48,674 nt of DNA, taken from the NCBI GenBank assembly GCA_030679115.1, contig JAUXTS010000047.1, positions 1 through 48,674 on the forward strand, given 5' to 3'. A program made the position numbers and the translations under genes. Under the pieces are notes generated by a model. It did no database searches. It was not told the DNA's origin and worked only from the letters and a program-made list of their open reading frames with translations. This stretch comes from an archaeon. GTDB lineage: Archaea; Nanobdellota; Nanobdellia; Pacearchaeales; GW2011-AR1. Below, piece by piece: positions 3,272 through 26,330 of the stretch (position 1 is its first letter; the number at the start of each line of letters is the position of its first letter).

Positions 3272-3805
3272 ATGGTAAAAAAGAAACCCTATACAACTAG
3301 GGAACTTGCACGTTATGCATCAAGGCACTTTGTTCCTGGAGACACCACCCATATAGAAGATTGTACTTATGACATTGCTTTTGCAGACACTCTTATGAAA
3401 AAAGGAGAATATAATGAAGCAATGAAAGCATTAGAATATGCCGGTTCATTTGAATTGCCTTATCTTCCTGAAGAAAATAAATCTAAAGTTGCTCAAGCAA
3501 TTGTTAATCGTGCATATAGGATAGCTAAAAAAGGCAAAAGTTCTCAGTCAGGTATTCATCTTGAGGATAGAGCAAGTAAATTAGAGAAAACTTTACATAA
3601 TCGCTATCTTGATAAAGAAAGGCGTCATTTGAAGTCAACTCTTGCAGCAGCAATAATAAGCATATCTGCAGGTTTATTATTAATCTCTTCAACAATAACT
3701 GGAAGCACTATAACTAATTTGGATTCTACATCTTCAAGTATAATAGGAACAATTTTGGTAGCTGTTGGACTTATCGGCGGATTTTACTGGTTAAAAAAGA
3801 ATTAA
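3272..3805 (+). CDS. Hypothetical protein with two C-terminal TM helices
   Basis: ORF; hydrophobic C-terminus. Confidence 0.6.
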   Translation: MVKKKPYTTRELARYASRHFVPGDTTHIEDCTYDIAFADTLMKKGEYNEAMKALEYAGSFELPYLPEENKSKVAQAIVNRAYRIAKKGKSSQSGIHLEDRASKLEKTLHNRYLDKERRHLKSTLAAAIISISAGLLLISSTITGSTITNLDSTSSSIIGTILVAVGLIGGFYWLKKN

Positions 3806-4137
3806 ACCAACTTTATATTTTTAAGGGCTTCTTTAATTTTAGGAATATCTTCCTTATATGCACCCCATATTCTATCCAAACTAACTTCAAAATAACCATG
3901 AACCATTAAGTCTCTGAACTGAGACATACTGAACCATGGAACCTGCTTGTTCTTTTCCTTAAGCGCTCTTGGAATATTTCTGCTTGCTTCACCTATTATT
4001 TCAAACCTTCTTACTACTCCATCTTGAAGCAGTTTATTTTTATTAAATTCTTCATGAGAAACGCCCTTCATATATTCTTCTATCTGTTTAATGCAGTCAG
4101 ATATATCGCTGAGATATAATTTGTAATCTCTTTTCAT
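3802..4137 (-). CDS. HepT-like HEPN ribonuclease toxin (DUF86)
   Basis: RX4HXY motif 'RDLMVHGY'; overlaps the MNT gene by 4 nt. Confidence 0.88.
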   Translation of the reverse strand: MKRDYKLYLSDISDCIKQIEEYMKGVSHEEFNKNKLLQDGVVRRFEIIGEASRNIPRALKEKNKQVPWFSMSQFRDLMVHGYFEVSLDRIWGAYKEDIPKIKEALKNIKLV

Positions 4138-4433
4138 AAAATAGGTATTTCCTCTCCAAGTATTCGAACTTTTAGTTCTTTTCTTATAGCCCCATATTCT
4201 ACCAAGTCAATCTTCTTTTTAATGGCATTTTCCAGCATATTTTTAATTTCTATAAATCCAAGAAGAGACACATTTTTATTTATTTCTACTAATATATCTA
4301 CATCGCTTTTCTTTTTCTGTTCTCCTCTTGCATAACTGCCGAATATTCCAGCTCTTGTTACCTTATATTTTTTCAAAATAGGAATAATCTTTTGTCTTAT
4401 TAACACTATATCTCTATTCATATCTATAACCAT
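4134..4433 (-). CDS. MntA-like minimal nucleotidyltransferase antitoxin
   Basis: GSX10DXD motif 'GSYARGEQKKKSDVD'; cotranscribed with the HEPN gene. Confidence 0.9.
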   Translation of the reverse strand: MVIDMNRDIVLIRQKIIPILKKYKVTRAGIFGSYARGEQKKKSDVDILVEINKNVSLLGFIEIKNMLENAIKKKIDLVEYGAIRKELKVRILGEEIPIL

Positions 4434-4459
4434 CTTTTCAACTTTTTAAGTCTTATGAA

Positions 4460-4867
4460 TTAACCAAGAATTTTCTTGAAGAATTTGAAAACATCTCTTT
4501 CTAAATCTATAAGTGCAAGTTTTGAACTTCCAAGTATCAATTTTGGCAGGTTAATATGTGAAGTTTTATGAACATGTTCAGTAGTCGGGTCAATAAAGAC
4601 TATTCCTTTCAACCTGTTTGTTTTTTCAAAATTAATATTATCTAATATTGTAGCATCTTTCGTATCAACAAAAAGAAAATCTGCTTCTTCAACAGCTTCA
4701 AATCTTCCATTTTTTTCAGATTCAAGCATAGTCAATTCAATTTCAAGTTTTTTTAATATTTTCTTCAATCTAAGATATAATTCATGCGCTCTAAGCTGAA
4801 CTTCTTCTCCAATCCCTTCTTCATTATTAATTTTCAAAGAAGGACGAACTAACACCGCTTTTGTCAT
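4460..4867 (-). CDS. Hypothetical protein (possible single pentein/amidinotransferase-like half)
   Basis: Start trimmed from 5008 to MTKAVLVRPSLK because the upstream part of the track ORF spans the hairpin region; weak resemblance to dimethylargininase N-termini. Confidence 0.5.
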   Translation of the reverse strand: MTKAVLVRPSLKINNEEGIGEEVQLRAHELYLRLKKILKKLEIELTMLESEKNGRFEAVEEADFLFVDTKDATILDNINFEKTNRLKGIVFIDPTTEHVHKTSHINLPKLILGSSKLALIDLERDVFKFFKKILG

Positions 4868-4947
4868 ATTTATATCTGGAAAAGGCAGTATAAAAAATTG
4901 TCTATATGAATATAAATTAAGAGAAGAGTGTGTTTCAAAAATATTTA

Positions 4948-5063
4948 TGTCAAGAAGCTTGACAGAAAACCACACACTAAAGTGTGTGGTTGTTTCTTGA
5001 GCATCCAAAAGACGAGCACTTTTTCAAACCTCGCCTTTTAAGGCGAGGTGTGCATCGTCTTTT
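4948..5063. other. Cluster of intergenic hairpins
   Basis: tgtcaag-aag-cttgaca (4948-4964); aaccacacact-aa-agtgtgtggtt (4968-4991); nested hairpin aaaagacga...tcgtctttt (5007-5063) enclosing acctcgcctt-tt-aaggcgaggt. Confidence 0.8.
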
Positions 5064-5122
5064 TGATACTAGATGTATTTTTTAATTAATCACTAAACAA
5101 CTCTCTCTTTTAAAAAATGAAT

Positions 5123-6406
5123 TTAAATTAATTTCTTTGCCTTTATTTCAATGCAGACACCAGCTCCAACTGTTGCTCCAGCGTCTCTTATAGCGAATCT
5201 TGCCATGTGAGGGTTAGTTGCGTTTGTTTCAATAACTAAGTTTCCGATTGGCTTCAATCTAACTTTAGCAACATCTCCGTTCTTCAAAAAGTCAGGATTC
5301 TTTGCATTTACTCCATCAGGGCTTGTCTTTTCAATAAGCTCAATGAACTGGCATGGAACCTGTGCTGTATGAATGTGGAATACTGGTGTATAACCCTTTG
5401 CAATAACTGTTGGGTGTGCAATAACTGCAATTTGAGCAACGAATTCTTCAGCAATTGTGGCTGGGCTTGAAGCATCACAGACTACATCTCCTCTTGCTAC
5501 ATCTTTCTTTCCTACTCCTCTTATGTTGATTCCAACATTGTCTCCAGCTTCAGCTTCAGACATTTGTTCATGGTGCATTTCAATAGTCTTGACTTCTCCA
5601 GGAACTCCCTTTCCGCTTCTTCCAGGCAAAATTATAACTTTCTGTCCAATCTTCATTATTCCTGTTTCAATCTTTCCAACTGGAACAGTTCCAATTCCTG
5701 TAATTTCATAAACATCCTGTAATGGCATTCTAAGTGGAAGTCCTGTTGGCTTGTTAGGCATTGTAAACAAATCAAACTGTTCCAATATTGTTGGTCCCTT
5801 GTACCATGGCATATTAGTTGATTTCTTAGCAACGTTATCTCCTTTGAATCCAGATATAGCTAAGAATGTTATTGTGTCTGGTTTGTAACCTGCCATCTTC
5901 AAAACAGCAGAAACATCAGCTTTTACTTTATTGAAAACATCTTCTTTGTAATCTACAGCGTCCATCTTGTTTATTGAAACTGCAATCTGTGCAACTCCCA
6001 TAGTCTTCAAAAGCCATACGTGCTCTTTAGTCTGAGGCTGAACTCCATCTTTTGCAGATACTGTCAAGAAAGCGCAGTCTGCCTGTGAAGCTCCAGTAAT
6101 CATGTTCTTGATAAAGTCTTTGTGTCCAGGAGCGTCAATTATTGTAACTTCATACTTATTAGTTATTAATTTTTCATAAGATAAATCAATTGTAACTCCC
6201 CTTTCTCTTTCCTCTTTGAACTTATCCATAACGAATGCGAATTCAAATCCAACTTTTCCGTGCTTCTGTGCTTCAGCCTTAAGTTTTTCAAGCTGTTCAG
6301 GTGATAATTTTCCAGAATCAAACATAAGTCTTCCTATAGTTGTAGATTTTCCGTGGTCTACGTGTCCTACAAATGCAACGTTTATTGTTGGTTTTGTCTT
6401 TGCCAT
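5123..6406 (-). CDS. tuf: Translation elongation factor EF-1alpha
   Basis: [21 protein letters not shown] motifs; archaeal EF-1A throughout. Confidence 0.98.
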
Positions 6407-9782: not shown

Positions 9783-11972
9783 CTACTGATTCTCCGCAAG
9801 TCCTTTTCTCTGCCTGATTGTTCTTACAACATTTGGCTGCAAATCATTAGGTATTTTCTGGAAATTCTGATCCATCAAAGAAGAAATTCCTCTGCCTTCT
9901 GTCGCACTTCTCAAATCGTTGCTCCATCCAATCATTTCAGCAACTGGAATCTTTGCTTTAATCATCGTATCATTTCCTTCCTGCTGAACATCAATTAAAA
10001 CTCCTCTTTTGCTTCCAACTAATTGTGTTACAGTTCCCATAAATTCAATTGGAGCTTCAATCAAATGAGTTTGTATCGGCTCAAGCATTACTGCTCCAGC
10101 TTTTTTCATAGCTTCATACATTCCAAGTCTTAAAGCAGGATAAATTTGAGCAGGCCCCCTGTGCATGTGGTCAACGTGCAATTTTGCATCAAGTAATATT
10201 AATTTAGTTTTCATCATTGGCTCTTTGGATAAAGGTCCGCCATCGATAACCATTCTCCATCCTTCAAGTATGGATTCTATTGCTTCAGGAAGCAGAACTA
10301 GTCCTCTCGTTCTGTCTTCAAAAACATTTCCTTTGTAAATTTCCAAATATTGTCTTGCTTCATCATTTGAAAGCCCCAATTCATTAAGTTTCTTCCATAT
10401 ATCTTCAGCTTTTTTCTTTAATCTTAATTCAGGAAGCTCTCCTCTTTCAATTGCATTATAAACTTCATCTTCCAATGGTTCAATAGAAAAGAAGAATATG
10501 TTGTGTCCATTAGGAGTTCTTATTTCAGTTTTTCCGCTTTCTTTTGAAACACTTTCCCTATAAACTACAATAGGATTACCCATCTTTACTTCCAATCCCT
10601 TTTCAGTCTTGATTCTTCCTTCAATAATTTCCAAATGCAGTTCTCCCATTCCAGACATTAAATTTTCTCCAGTTTCTTCATTAATTTCAATCTTGATGCT
10701 TGGATCTTCTTTACCAACTTTTCTCAAAACTTCAATAAGTTTTGGCAAATCTGCAGATTTTGTAACTTCAATAGATTTTGTAATAACTGGCTGGAATATA
10801 TGTTTTATTTCTTCAAAGGAGGTTTGGGGGTTTTCAGTAATTGTATCTCCAACATCTACATTCAATCCTGAAATTGCAAGAACATTTCCGCACGGAACGC
10901 TATTTAATTGTTCTGGTTTTATGCCATTATAAACTAAAACCTGCTGAACTCTGTATTTCTTTTTTGCGTTGTTTGCATAAACTTCCATTCCATTTTCTAT
11001 TGTTCCAGAATATAATCTCCCGGCAGAAATTTCCTTTCCCGAACGCGGATCAATTACGATTCTTGTAATTACAAATCCTACTTCACCATCTTTATTGCAA
11101 TTCAATAAGTCCTTTCCGAACTGGCTGTCAGAGTCTCCTCTCCATATCTTTGGAATTCTGTATTTCTGTGCTTCTAATGGATTTGGAAGATGTTTTACAG
11201 CCATATCAAGAACAACTTCATACAAAGGAGCATTTGCCCAAACCCATTTCTTTCTTTCGGCTTCTTCCATATCATAAAGTTTATAGACATCTTTGAATGT
11301 GACATTTTTCTTTTTCATGAACGGCAATGATAATGCCCAATTCTCTCTCGCACTCCCAAAAGCAACGCTTCCATCCATAACATTAACCTTCCACTTTTCC
11401 TTGAATTCGGGCTCTGCAATCTGCATAATTAAATTATTAAAATCAGCAATTAATGTCATGAACCTTTCCTGCATCTCTTCTGGAGTTACTTTCAATTCCT
11501 TTATCAGTCTGTCAACTTTATTGATAAACAAAACTGGCTTTACTCTTTCTCTTAATGCCTGTTTCAATACAGTTTCAGTCTGCGGCATTATTCCTTCAAC
11601 TGCGCATACAAGAACGAACGTGCCGTCAATTGCCCTCATAGCTCTTGTAACGTTTCCGCCGAAGTCAACGTGTCCTGGCGTGTCAATAAGATTAATCAAA
11701 TATTCCTTGTCCTGATATGAGTGGCCCATAGATACGTTTGCAGCATCTACAGTCATCAATCTTTCCTGCTCGTCGCCATGCTGCCAAGTAGTCATTCCTT
11801 CATCAAGGCTTCCCGCAATCTTTGCTGACATTAATCCTGCAGCTGCAAGAAGATTATCTGTGAACGCCGTTTTGCCGTGATGTATGTGTGCGCTCGTCGC
11901 TACGTTTCTTATGTTTTCTCTCGTGTTCGTTAATCTTTCGATTTTTTGCAAACTTGCTTCTTTATCTACCAT
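9783..11972 (-). CDS. fusA: Translation elongation factor EF-2
   Basis: NVATSAHIHHGKTAFTDNLL, DTPGHVDFGGNVTRAMRAIDG, archaeal EF-2 C-terminus. Confidence 0.98.
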   Translation of the reverse strand: MVDKEASLQKIERLTNTRENIRNVATSAHIHHGKTAFTDNLLAAAGLMSAKIAGSLDEGMTTWQHGDEQERLMTVDAANVSMGHSYQDKEYLINLIDTPGHVDFGGNVTRAMRAIDGTFVLVCAVEGIMPQTETVLKQALRERVKPVLFINKVDRLIKELKVTPEEMQERFMTLIADFNNLIMQIAEPEFKEKWKVNVMDGSVAFGSARENWALSLPFMKKKNVTFKDVYKLYDMEEAERKKWVWANAPLYEVVLDMAVKHLPNPLEAQKYRIPKIWRGDSDSQFGKDLLNCNKDGEVGFVITRIVIDPRSGKEISAGRLYSGTIENGMEVYANNAKKKYRVQQVLVYNGIKPEQLNSVPCGNVLAISGLNVDVGDTITENPQTSFEEIKHIFQPVITKSIEVTKSADLPKLIEVLRKVGKEDPSIKIEINEETGENLMSGMGELHLEIIEGRIKTEKGLEVKMGNPIVVYRESVSKESGKTEIRTPNGHNIFFFSIEPLEDEVYNAIERGELPELRLKKKAEDIWKKLNELGLSNDEARQYLEIYKGNVFEDRTRGLVLLPEAIESILEGWRMVIDGGPLSKEPMMKTKLILLDAKLHVDHMHRGPAQIYPALRLGMYEAMKKAGAVMLEPIQTHLIEAPIEFMGTVTQLVGSKRGVLIDVQQEGNDTMIKAKIPVAEMIGWSNDLRSATEGRGISSLMDQNFQKIPNDLQPNVVRTIRQRKGLAENQ

Positions 11973-12035
11973 ATAATAAAATACTCAATCAACTTCTGTC
12001 TCTTGAGAATAAATCGTTATACAAAAATCGGTTTT

Positions 12036-12150
12036 TAAATCTTTAGCTAGTTAAAGCTAAAAGAGATAAAGATTACAATGTAATCTTTAGAACTTCCGCA
12101 TATATAATGCGGAATGGACTAAGAATTTTTATAAAAATTCTTAAGATTTA
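12036..12150 (-). promoter_or_regulatory. Four-hairpin array upstream of EF-2 (copy 1)
   Basis: H1 12042-12061, H2 12067-12089, H3 12094-12114, H4 12120-12143; outer 8-bp IR taaatctt/aagattta; adjacent TATA-like tttttaaatc. Confidence 0.85.
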
Positions 12151-17923: not shown

Positions 17924-18346
17924 TTATCTTCTACCCTTCTCTATCTTGCCCTTCCACAAAAGTCTAAGTGGCTGGTCATTCACTTTAATTACTTGGAATC
18001 TGATTCCGGGAATATCTCCCTTTTGTCTTCCGCTTCTTCCGCCGATTCGCTCAATTATAACTTCATCGTGTTCATCTACAAATTTCTGTGCAAGATTTCC
18101 TGGAATGAATGCTCCGACAGAAATTCCATTTTTAATCAATTGAACTTTACAGCACTTTCTCATTGCAGAGTTTGGCTGTCTCGCTTCTTTTTGCATTTTG
18201 CTAATGACTATTCCTTTTGCCTGTGCACATCCTTTAAGAGGGTCTACTTTCTTCCAAATTCCAAGTGTTCTTTTCTTGAAAGCCTTCTGGCTCCATCTAT
18301 ATTTTTTCCTAGATTTCAAAAATTTTCTCGCATTCATTAAACCCAT
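17924..18346 (-). CDS. rps12: 30S ribosomal protein S12
   Basis: QPNSAMRKCCKVQLIKNG, GRSGRQKGDIPGIRFQVIKVND. Confidence 0.97.
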   Translation of the reverse strand: MGLMNARKFLKSRKKYRWSQKAFKKRTLGIWKKVDPLKGCAQAKGIVISKMQKEARQPNSAMRKCCKVQLIKNGISVGAFIPGNLAQKFVDEHDEVIIERIGGRSGRQKGDIPGIRFQVIKVNDQPLRLLWKGKIEKGRR

Positions 18347-18364: not shown

Positions 18365-18475
18365 TGCTTTAAAAACCTTTAGCTCGTAAGAGCTAGAGGA
18401 ATAAAGATTATTTTGTAATCTTTAGAACTTCCGTATACGTTTATACGGAACGTATCAGAGATTAAAATCTCTGAG
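18365..18475 (-). promoter_or_regulatory. Four-hairpin array upstream of S12 (copy 2)
   Basis: H1 18376-18399 (10 bp with one G-U, GTAA loop), H2 18402-18424, H3 18429-18450, H4 18455-18474; TATA-like ctttaaaaa about 26 nt before the S12 ATG. Confidence 0.88.
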
Positions 18476-25900: not shown

Positions 25901-26107
25901 TTATGCCACCACCCTATAATAAAAATAAACTTTATCTTCGGTTTTTCTTTCAATTTTCAGAACATCTCCAGGAACATAGCCTTGAAGAATTGCAGGATCA
26001 GTCGATTTAATTTTAGGCAATTGAGAAAGAGAAATATTATATTTTTCCAATAAATCTTTAATTTCTTGAGGCTTTAATTTTGTATGTTTGGGTTGTAAGA
26101 TGTGCAT
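25901..26107 (-). CDS. rpoH: RNA polymerase subunit H
   Basis: LQPKHTKLKPQEIKDLLEKYNISLSQLPKIKSTDPAI; immediately upstream of rpoB. Confidence 0.95.
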   Translation of the reverse strand: MHILQPKHTKLKPQEIKDLLEKYNISLSQLPKIKSTDPAILQGYVPGDVLKIERKTEDKVYFYYRVVA

Positions 26108-26160: not shown

Positions 26161-26330
26161 TGCAAAAATGGCTTTTTAAATCTTTTGCCGTTGGGCAAAA
26201 GAGATAGAGAATTCTAAAAGAATTCTCTAAGGACTTTCGACGTAAGTCGAAATGGACAAAGAATTGTTTTTTCAATTCTTTGGAGTTTTCTTCAAGAAAC
26301 ATTTAACTTCAAAAATAAGCCATTTTTGTA
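26161..26330 (-). promoter_or_regulatory. Four-hairpin array enclosed by an outer inverted repeat upstream of rpoH (copy 3)
   Basis: H1 26181-26202, H2 26205-26229, H3 26235-26252 (GTAA loop), H4 26257-26282; outer IR caaaaatggctt/aagccatttttg (26163-26174/26317-26328). Confidence 0.88.

Follow-up and report, generated by a model that had tools for sequence, protein, structure and literature searches.

The four-hairpin array at the EF-2 promoter is best read as belonging to a new family of archaeal repeats that are palindromic, modular, and dispersed. In function, the family comes closest to the bacterial BOX elements and resembles REP/BIME sequences more loosely; neither their tags nor their transposase was found with it. 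We give a probability of roughly 0.47 to the fuller reading, in which Pacearchaeota-related archaea carry a modular DNA repeat family whose full-length form, the array, acts as DNA at promoters. The core of the family runs from palindrome H2 through a short spacer (ccca, ctca, or tctc) to palindrome H1, followed by g(a/g)TTTAAA. The stems drift in sequence yet stay self-complementary, and the copies lie mostly just upstream of the BRE/TATA.

Three copies lie in the window (the whole 48,674-nucleotide stretch of DNA that was analyzed), upstream of the genes for EF-2, S12, and rpoH (Table 1). Direct reading and a mechanical hairpin scan both recovered the four ordered hairpins of each array where the first-pass annotation had placed them, and the hairpin order and the similar spacers could be read directly in all three. 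The count of three related copies holds for the window but not for the genome, in which there are a fourth full array and about 10 shorter or degenerate forms. The H2 stems were as described earlier, except that the rpoH H2 is an 11-bp stem (TAGAGAATTCT/AGAATTCTCTA), which refines the arms given before. An enclosing outer helix or terminal repeats were seen only in the rpoH copy, which has a 12-bp outer inverted repeat (caaaaatggctt/aagccatttttg).

TABLE 1 Arrays, promoter elements, and downstream genes located in the window
Feature	Position	Strand	Basis
TATA-like element (tttttaaa), EF-2 promoter	12032-12039	-	Sequence; same core promoter in relatives' EF-2 genes
H1, EF-2 array, TTTAGCT/AGCTAAA	12042-12061	.	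Sequence, covariation, folding
H2, EF-2 array, TAAAGATTACA/TGTAATCTTTA	12067-12089	.	Hairpin scan, covariation
H3, EF-2 array, TTCCGCAT/ATGCGGAA	12094-12114	.	Hairpin scan, covariation
H4, EF-2 array, perfect 24-bp palindrome TAAGAATTTTTATAAAAATTCTTA	12120-12143	.	Hairpin scan, covariation
EF-2 gene, downstream of array	9783-11972	-	Pfam EFG domains
TATA-like element, S12 promoter	18367-18375	-	Sequence
S12 array	18376-18474	.	Three-copy model match, 93.8 bits; hairpin scan, covariation
S12 array, H1	18376-18399		
S12 array, H2	18402-18424		
S12 array, H3	18429-18450		
S12 array, H4	18455-18474		
Ribosomal protein S12 gene	17924-18346	-	Pfam PF00164
TATA-like element, rpoH promoter	26173-26180	-	Sequence
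rpoH array	26181-26282	.	Three-copy model match, 81.7 bits; hairpin scan, covariation
rpoH array, H1	26181-26202		
rpoH array, H2	26205-26229		
rpoH array, H3	26235-26252		
rpoH array, H4	26257-26282		
rpoH (Rpb5-like) gene, first in rpoH-rpoB-rpoA cluster	25901-26107	-	Pfam PF01191; rpoB, rpoA domains
Family B hairpin array, sequence-unrelated	4948-5066	.	Modules TGTCAAG/CTTGACA, AACCACACACT/AGTGTGTGGTT, ACCTCGCCTT/AAGGCGAGGT

Folding, covariation, and further copies

Folded alone, the EF-2, S12, and rpoH arrays each formed exactly four hairpins, with z-scores of −6.5 to −10.5 on both strands and with DNA as well as RNA energies; no shuffle folded as well. A covariance model was built from these three copies, with the seed loops trimmed by hand so that the rows aligned without gaps. 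It recovered a held-out fourth full array (G000:C24:18663-18774; E value of 1.5e-9) just upstream of the gene for ribosomal protein S10. Covariation among the four full copies was strong: standard pairs occupied 128 of 128 pair cells, and 13 of the 32 pairs had changed on both sides, which none of 500 shuffles or slid controls matched. Compensated change had been noted for the arms of H3; it is true of all four helices, where 15 stem cells with two-sided changes stand against 1 with a one-sided change. The same two-sided covariation was found in 10 copies of the H2-H1-TTTAAA core, though some cells there are unpaired. Searches of the window and of the array loci against Rfam returned only tRNAs and one RT-16 match elsewhere (in the window itself, only tRNA-Lys), and the arrays thus match no Rfam family. 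The further copies, the strong covariation, and the lack of an Rfam match bear out the proposal of a conserved structural family rather than a simple repeat.

Stems of RNA usually change by way of G-U intermediates. Mismatches of the G-T or A-C type numbered only four across all the arrays of the source genome (G000) that were examined, and H1 of the S12 array has one T-G cell. An asymmetry of G-U between the strands was sought as a sign of the transcribed strand, and the 3 versus 1 mismatches were too few for this. Because two-sided changes dominate and G-U is almost absent, DNA symmetry fits the data better than does RNA folding. The pattern suggests that perfect symmetry of the DNA may be kept, through either selection at the DNA level or a mutation process that corrects palindromes.

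A model of two hairpins, comprising the H2-H1-TTTAAA core, found a held-out copy at the gene for ribosomal protein L37Ae in the same genome. This copy is among the shorter or degenerate forms, as is a decayed array before the gene for ribosomal protein L1 on contig C22. The H2 pattern TAAAGATT...AATCTTTA occurs 12 times in the source genome, and its reversed control does not occur. Model building and searching, which had been proposed as a check, yielded the full array at S10, the shorter forms, and copies in related genomes, although the copy count derives from searches and samples in a fragmented bin that is 82% complete. Since a sequence-unrelated family B is present as well, modular hairpin clusters are a general habit of the source genome. 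Besides the copy in the window, family B was found at L061 1951-2100 (C56, upstream of aIF5B), L228 4128-4305 (C11), and L227 312-445 (C10), with the modules TGTCAAG/CTTGACA, TCAAGAACC/GGTTCTTGA, AACCACACC/GGTGTGGTT, and ACCTCGCC/GGCGAGGT across copies.

Position at promoters and distribution among relatives

All full copies have the TATA box placed between the array and the gene, and the mRNA from that promoter therefore excludes the array. The first-pass annotation had H1 abutting a TATA-like tttttaaa, and in all three copies in the window tttaaa does lie on the gene side of H1; the spacing is fixed at 1 to 2 bases, and it is there, where H1 begins, that the archaeal BRE is positioned. On the gene strand, the EF-2 element reads gatttaaaaacc, and its BRE position overlaps H1. 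The EF-2 core promoter, gATTTAAAAACC, recurs in relatives that have no array, and so we take this TATA box to be genuine. For S12 and S10, approximately 22 bases separate the TATA box from the ATG, and these transcripts should therefore be leaderless.

A gene start (in one case that of a tRNA) faces the element within about 95 bases in 21 of 25 model matches, compared with 41 to 61% for random intergenic placement, a moderate excess in which 10 of the 25 matches (10 of the 12 from the source genome) are seeds of the model. The five full or decayed-full arrays of this family all precede translation or RNA polymerase genes (EF-2, S12, rpoH, S10, and L1), in a single orientation, and such genes make up a large share of the remaining facing genes, against a roughly estimated 11% of all genes. 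Other placements occur as well. The copy at C2:14264-14322 sits in the gap between two convergent genes, with a 3′ end on each side, and others adjoin the 3′ ends of tRNAs or, in G207, the variable repeats of diversity-generating retroelements (DGRs). In several genomes, the element has its TTTAAA end directed toward a stop codon; TTTAAA thus belongs to the repeat itself and does not always serve as a TATA box. The link to promoters is a strong tendency, not a rule, and the dispersed, modular nature of the element had gone unnoticed in the first-pass annotation.

The core model was applied to 195 genomes from the order, with one genome per species and simple open reading frame calls. At E values of ≤0.01, it found copies in 13 other genomes, other genera included, where about 2 were expected by chance; the source genome has 12 model matches versus 0 to 1 in most relatives. 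The H2 pattern likewise occurs 0 to 5 times in nearly all of the approximately 200 genomes of the order, one of which has 9 occurrences. The arms vary between genomes; the TTC...GAA that bounds H1, a ccca or ctca spacer, and g(a/g)TTTAAA recur. Held-out copies abut the promoter of L15e (G078) and, by reading, those of an aIF2-gamma-like GTPase (G198), L44e (G183), and a tRNA (G048). In about 50 relatives, the EF-2 promoter retains the TATA box but has no array, and alignment of these promoters with that of the source genome gave no alignable empty site beyond the TATA box. Most of the S12 and S10 promoters examined in relatives lack the array as well. The exception is G207, the closest relative by EF-2, which has its own array, spelled with different hairpins, against the S12 TATA box and none at its EF-2 and S10 promoters. 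An exact H2-H3 pattern gave no match in 85,000 named genomes, a collection that may lack the source genome or genomes very close to it, and a search of viral contigs with three patterns for a virus or plasmid carrier gave none.

Hairpins were seen in other arrangements among the relatives. At L210 (G183) 1499-1639 and L213 (G190) 1532-1646, the module is repeated in tandem, in whole or in part, with periods of 62 and 47 bases. At L197 (G008:C2) 1310-1690, a hairpin ladder with a TAAAGATT core spans the entire gap from a gene to the next TATA box.

Comparison with known repeats

BOX elements of Streptococcus pneumoniae are modular, multistem intergenic repeats of up to a few hundred bases that sometimes affect the expression of nearby genes and are thought to have once been mobile (PMC3049150). 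The arrays share with them an intergenic location, multiple copies, and modular stem structures. Unlike the stems of the arrays, which vary under a persistent symmetry and spacing, the BOX modules (boxA, boxB, and boxC) keep their sequence; BOX elements also occur more often than expected between convergent genes (PMC3049150). The arrays, by contrast, mostly abut promoters and come from another domain of life. The REP/BIME and GTAG/CGTC palindromic repeats, described for bacterial phyla, are likewise short, dispersed, often clustered, and intergenic (PMC3733652). In contrast to these, each array is an ordered set of four different hairpins, direct reading of the four full arrays showed no GTAG or CGTC at the base of the palindromes, and no RAYT/Y1 transposase was found in the source genome.

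The hairpin/cruciform element of DGRs lies downstream of the variable repeat and has a single GC-rich stem and a GRNA loop (PMC3240598). It too is a DNA hairpin with a variable stem that is used as structure, but the arrays are AT-rich and multiple and are not tied to a DGR in the source genome. In G207, two-hairpin modules lie directly beside DGR variable repeats (L312 5672-5715 and L306 13916-13959); these resemble the DGR element, except that they are AT-rich. In Archaea, a genome-wide survey showed that inverted repeats peak near −50 from start codons (PMC13155455). Palindromes upstream of promoters are therefore already known; that result is a genome-wide statistic, and the new part is a homologous, ordered, multihairpin array with covariation.

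Competing explanations and possible function

Chance hairpins or a sequencing or assembly artefact might be suspected in an AT-rich genome that is a fragmented metagenome bin, but such an origin has next to no probability, as it is refuted by the folding (z-scores down to −10.5), by the reversed-pattern controls (0, versus 12 to 13 occurrences of the H2 pattern), and by copies on several contigs and in other genomes. Among the roles that the first-pass annotation had offered was that of an RNA leader acting in cis on the downstream genes, for example an autoregulatory leader of the ribosomal protein kind. Although arrays do lie upstream of S12, S10, L1, and EF-2, they are on the far side of a conserved core promoter from the gene in every full copy, and with S12 and S10 transcripts that should be leaderless, we reject this role as very improbable. 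Transcription of the arrays in the other direction, as an antisense or divergent small RNA leading away from the downstream gene, or as a 3′-untranslated-region element of the neighboring gene, would accord with the strong RNA folding, with H1 loops that in some cases read GTAA, GAAA, or GTGA on the TTTAAA-first strand, and with the location of the element directly after a same-strand stop codon in some relatives. We nevertheless consider it unlikely, and an independent small RNA, as had also been suggested, gains little from the data: G-U pairs are almost absent and one-sided changes rare, no Rfam family matches, inspection of the outward strand by eye revealed no consistent promoter, and the EF-2 array lies between divergent promoters, so that it can be no 3′ untranslated region there. 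The GNRA tetraloops, considered as a sign of RNA, were unconvincing at 7 of 30 four-base loops versus a background of about 11%.

It is a real possibility that the arrays are selfish or neutral palindromic repeats (REP-, BOX-, or MITE-like) spreading in intergenic DNA. Promoters would then be occupied as the places where intergenic space or accessible DNA is found, and the symmetry would come from spreading or from palindrome-correcting template switches, not from a need of the host. The lineage-specific copy number, the shuffling of modules between arrays, the occurrence of both orientations, and the copies beside tRNAs, DGRs, and convergent genes all favor this explanation, as do the array-free orthologous EF-2 promoters and most S12/S10 promoters; concerted two-sided changes are the expected outcome of palindrome correction. 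Mobilization by a RAYT/Y1 (IS200/IS605) transposase was rejected, however, since PF01797 had 0 matches in the source genome (82% complete), compared with its presence in 6 of 20 genomes searched. Target-site duplications and shared terminal repeats were not seen, the four full and the decayed L1 arrays precede translation or RNA polymerase genes in one orientation, and an array occupies the corresponding S12 position in the closest relative.

Given that growth genes have the arrays against their core promoters, the single most likely function would be a DNA-level role in cis, with the selfish or neutral repeat a close rival. The full form marks translation and RNA polymerase genes in the source genome, probably modulating or insulating their promoters. 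The array would work as DNA, outside the mRNA, and the cruciform or protein-binding DNA element suggested in the first-pass annotation thus stays a candidate. Its tandem inverted repeats may be bound by a protein that reads shape or symmetry, or they may be extruded as hairpins; placed against the BRE, they could tune the assembly of the preinitiation complex or insulate the promoter from upstream transcription. A more specific version, to which we attach rather low probability, is a shape-coded promoter element of a DPANN archaeon, in which ordered hairpin arrays upstream of the BRE/TATA would be recognized by symmetry and spacing instead of sequence and would jointly set the expression of translation and RNA polymerase genes.

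To our knowledge, almost nothing is known of how DPANN archaea that are uncultured and have tiny genomes regulate their genes. If the DNA-level reading is true, an element conserved in structure and variable in sequence at the core promoters of the growth machinery would follow a logic unlike that of the usual transcription factor site. If the arrays are selfish, they would still be a modular palindromic repeat family of archaea that strongly favors promoters and has no obvious transposase. The covariance model can be used to find the family in other genomes.

Several other structured loci were encountered in the source genome and its relatives. A conserved, structured segment of the form ttcatcYca...tgRgatgaa agggc...gcccac lies upstream of S10 at L057 2290-2480 and in G207, G209, G210, G212, G213, G214, and G217; no Rfam family reached threshold for it, and it is perhaps an unrecognized noncoding RNA. 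Hairpin clusters between the 3′ end of a tRNA and a second copy of its 3′ tail, at L222 (G000:C4) 3533-3665, L246 (G207), and L063 (G008), resemble tiny integrated elements. A tRNA-like gene at L066 (G023:C27), approximately 1870-2100, seems to contain, near its 3′ end, an insert of about 100 bases made up of three hairpins, which may be a T-arm intron. L235 (G000:C18) 3525-5201 is a DGR with a reverse transcriptase (PF00078), template and variable repeats, and the RT-16 RNA match, and it adjoins a tyrosine-recombinase-like open reading frame.
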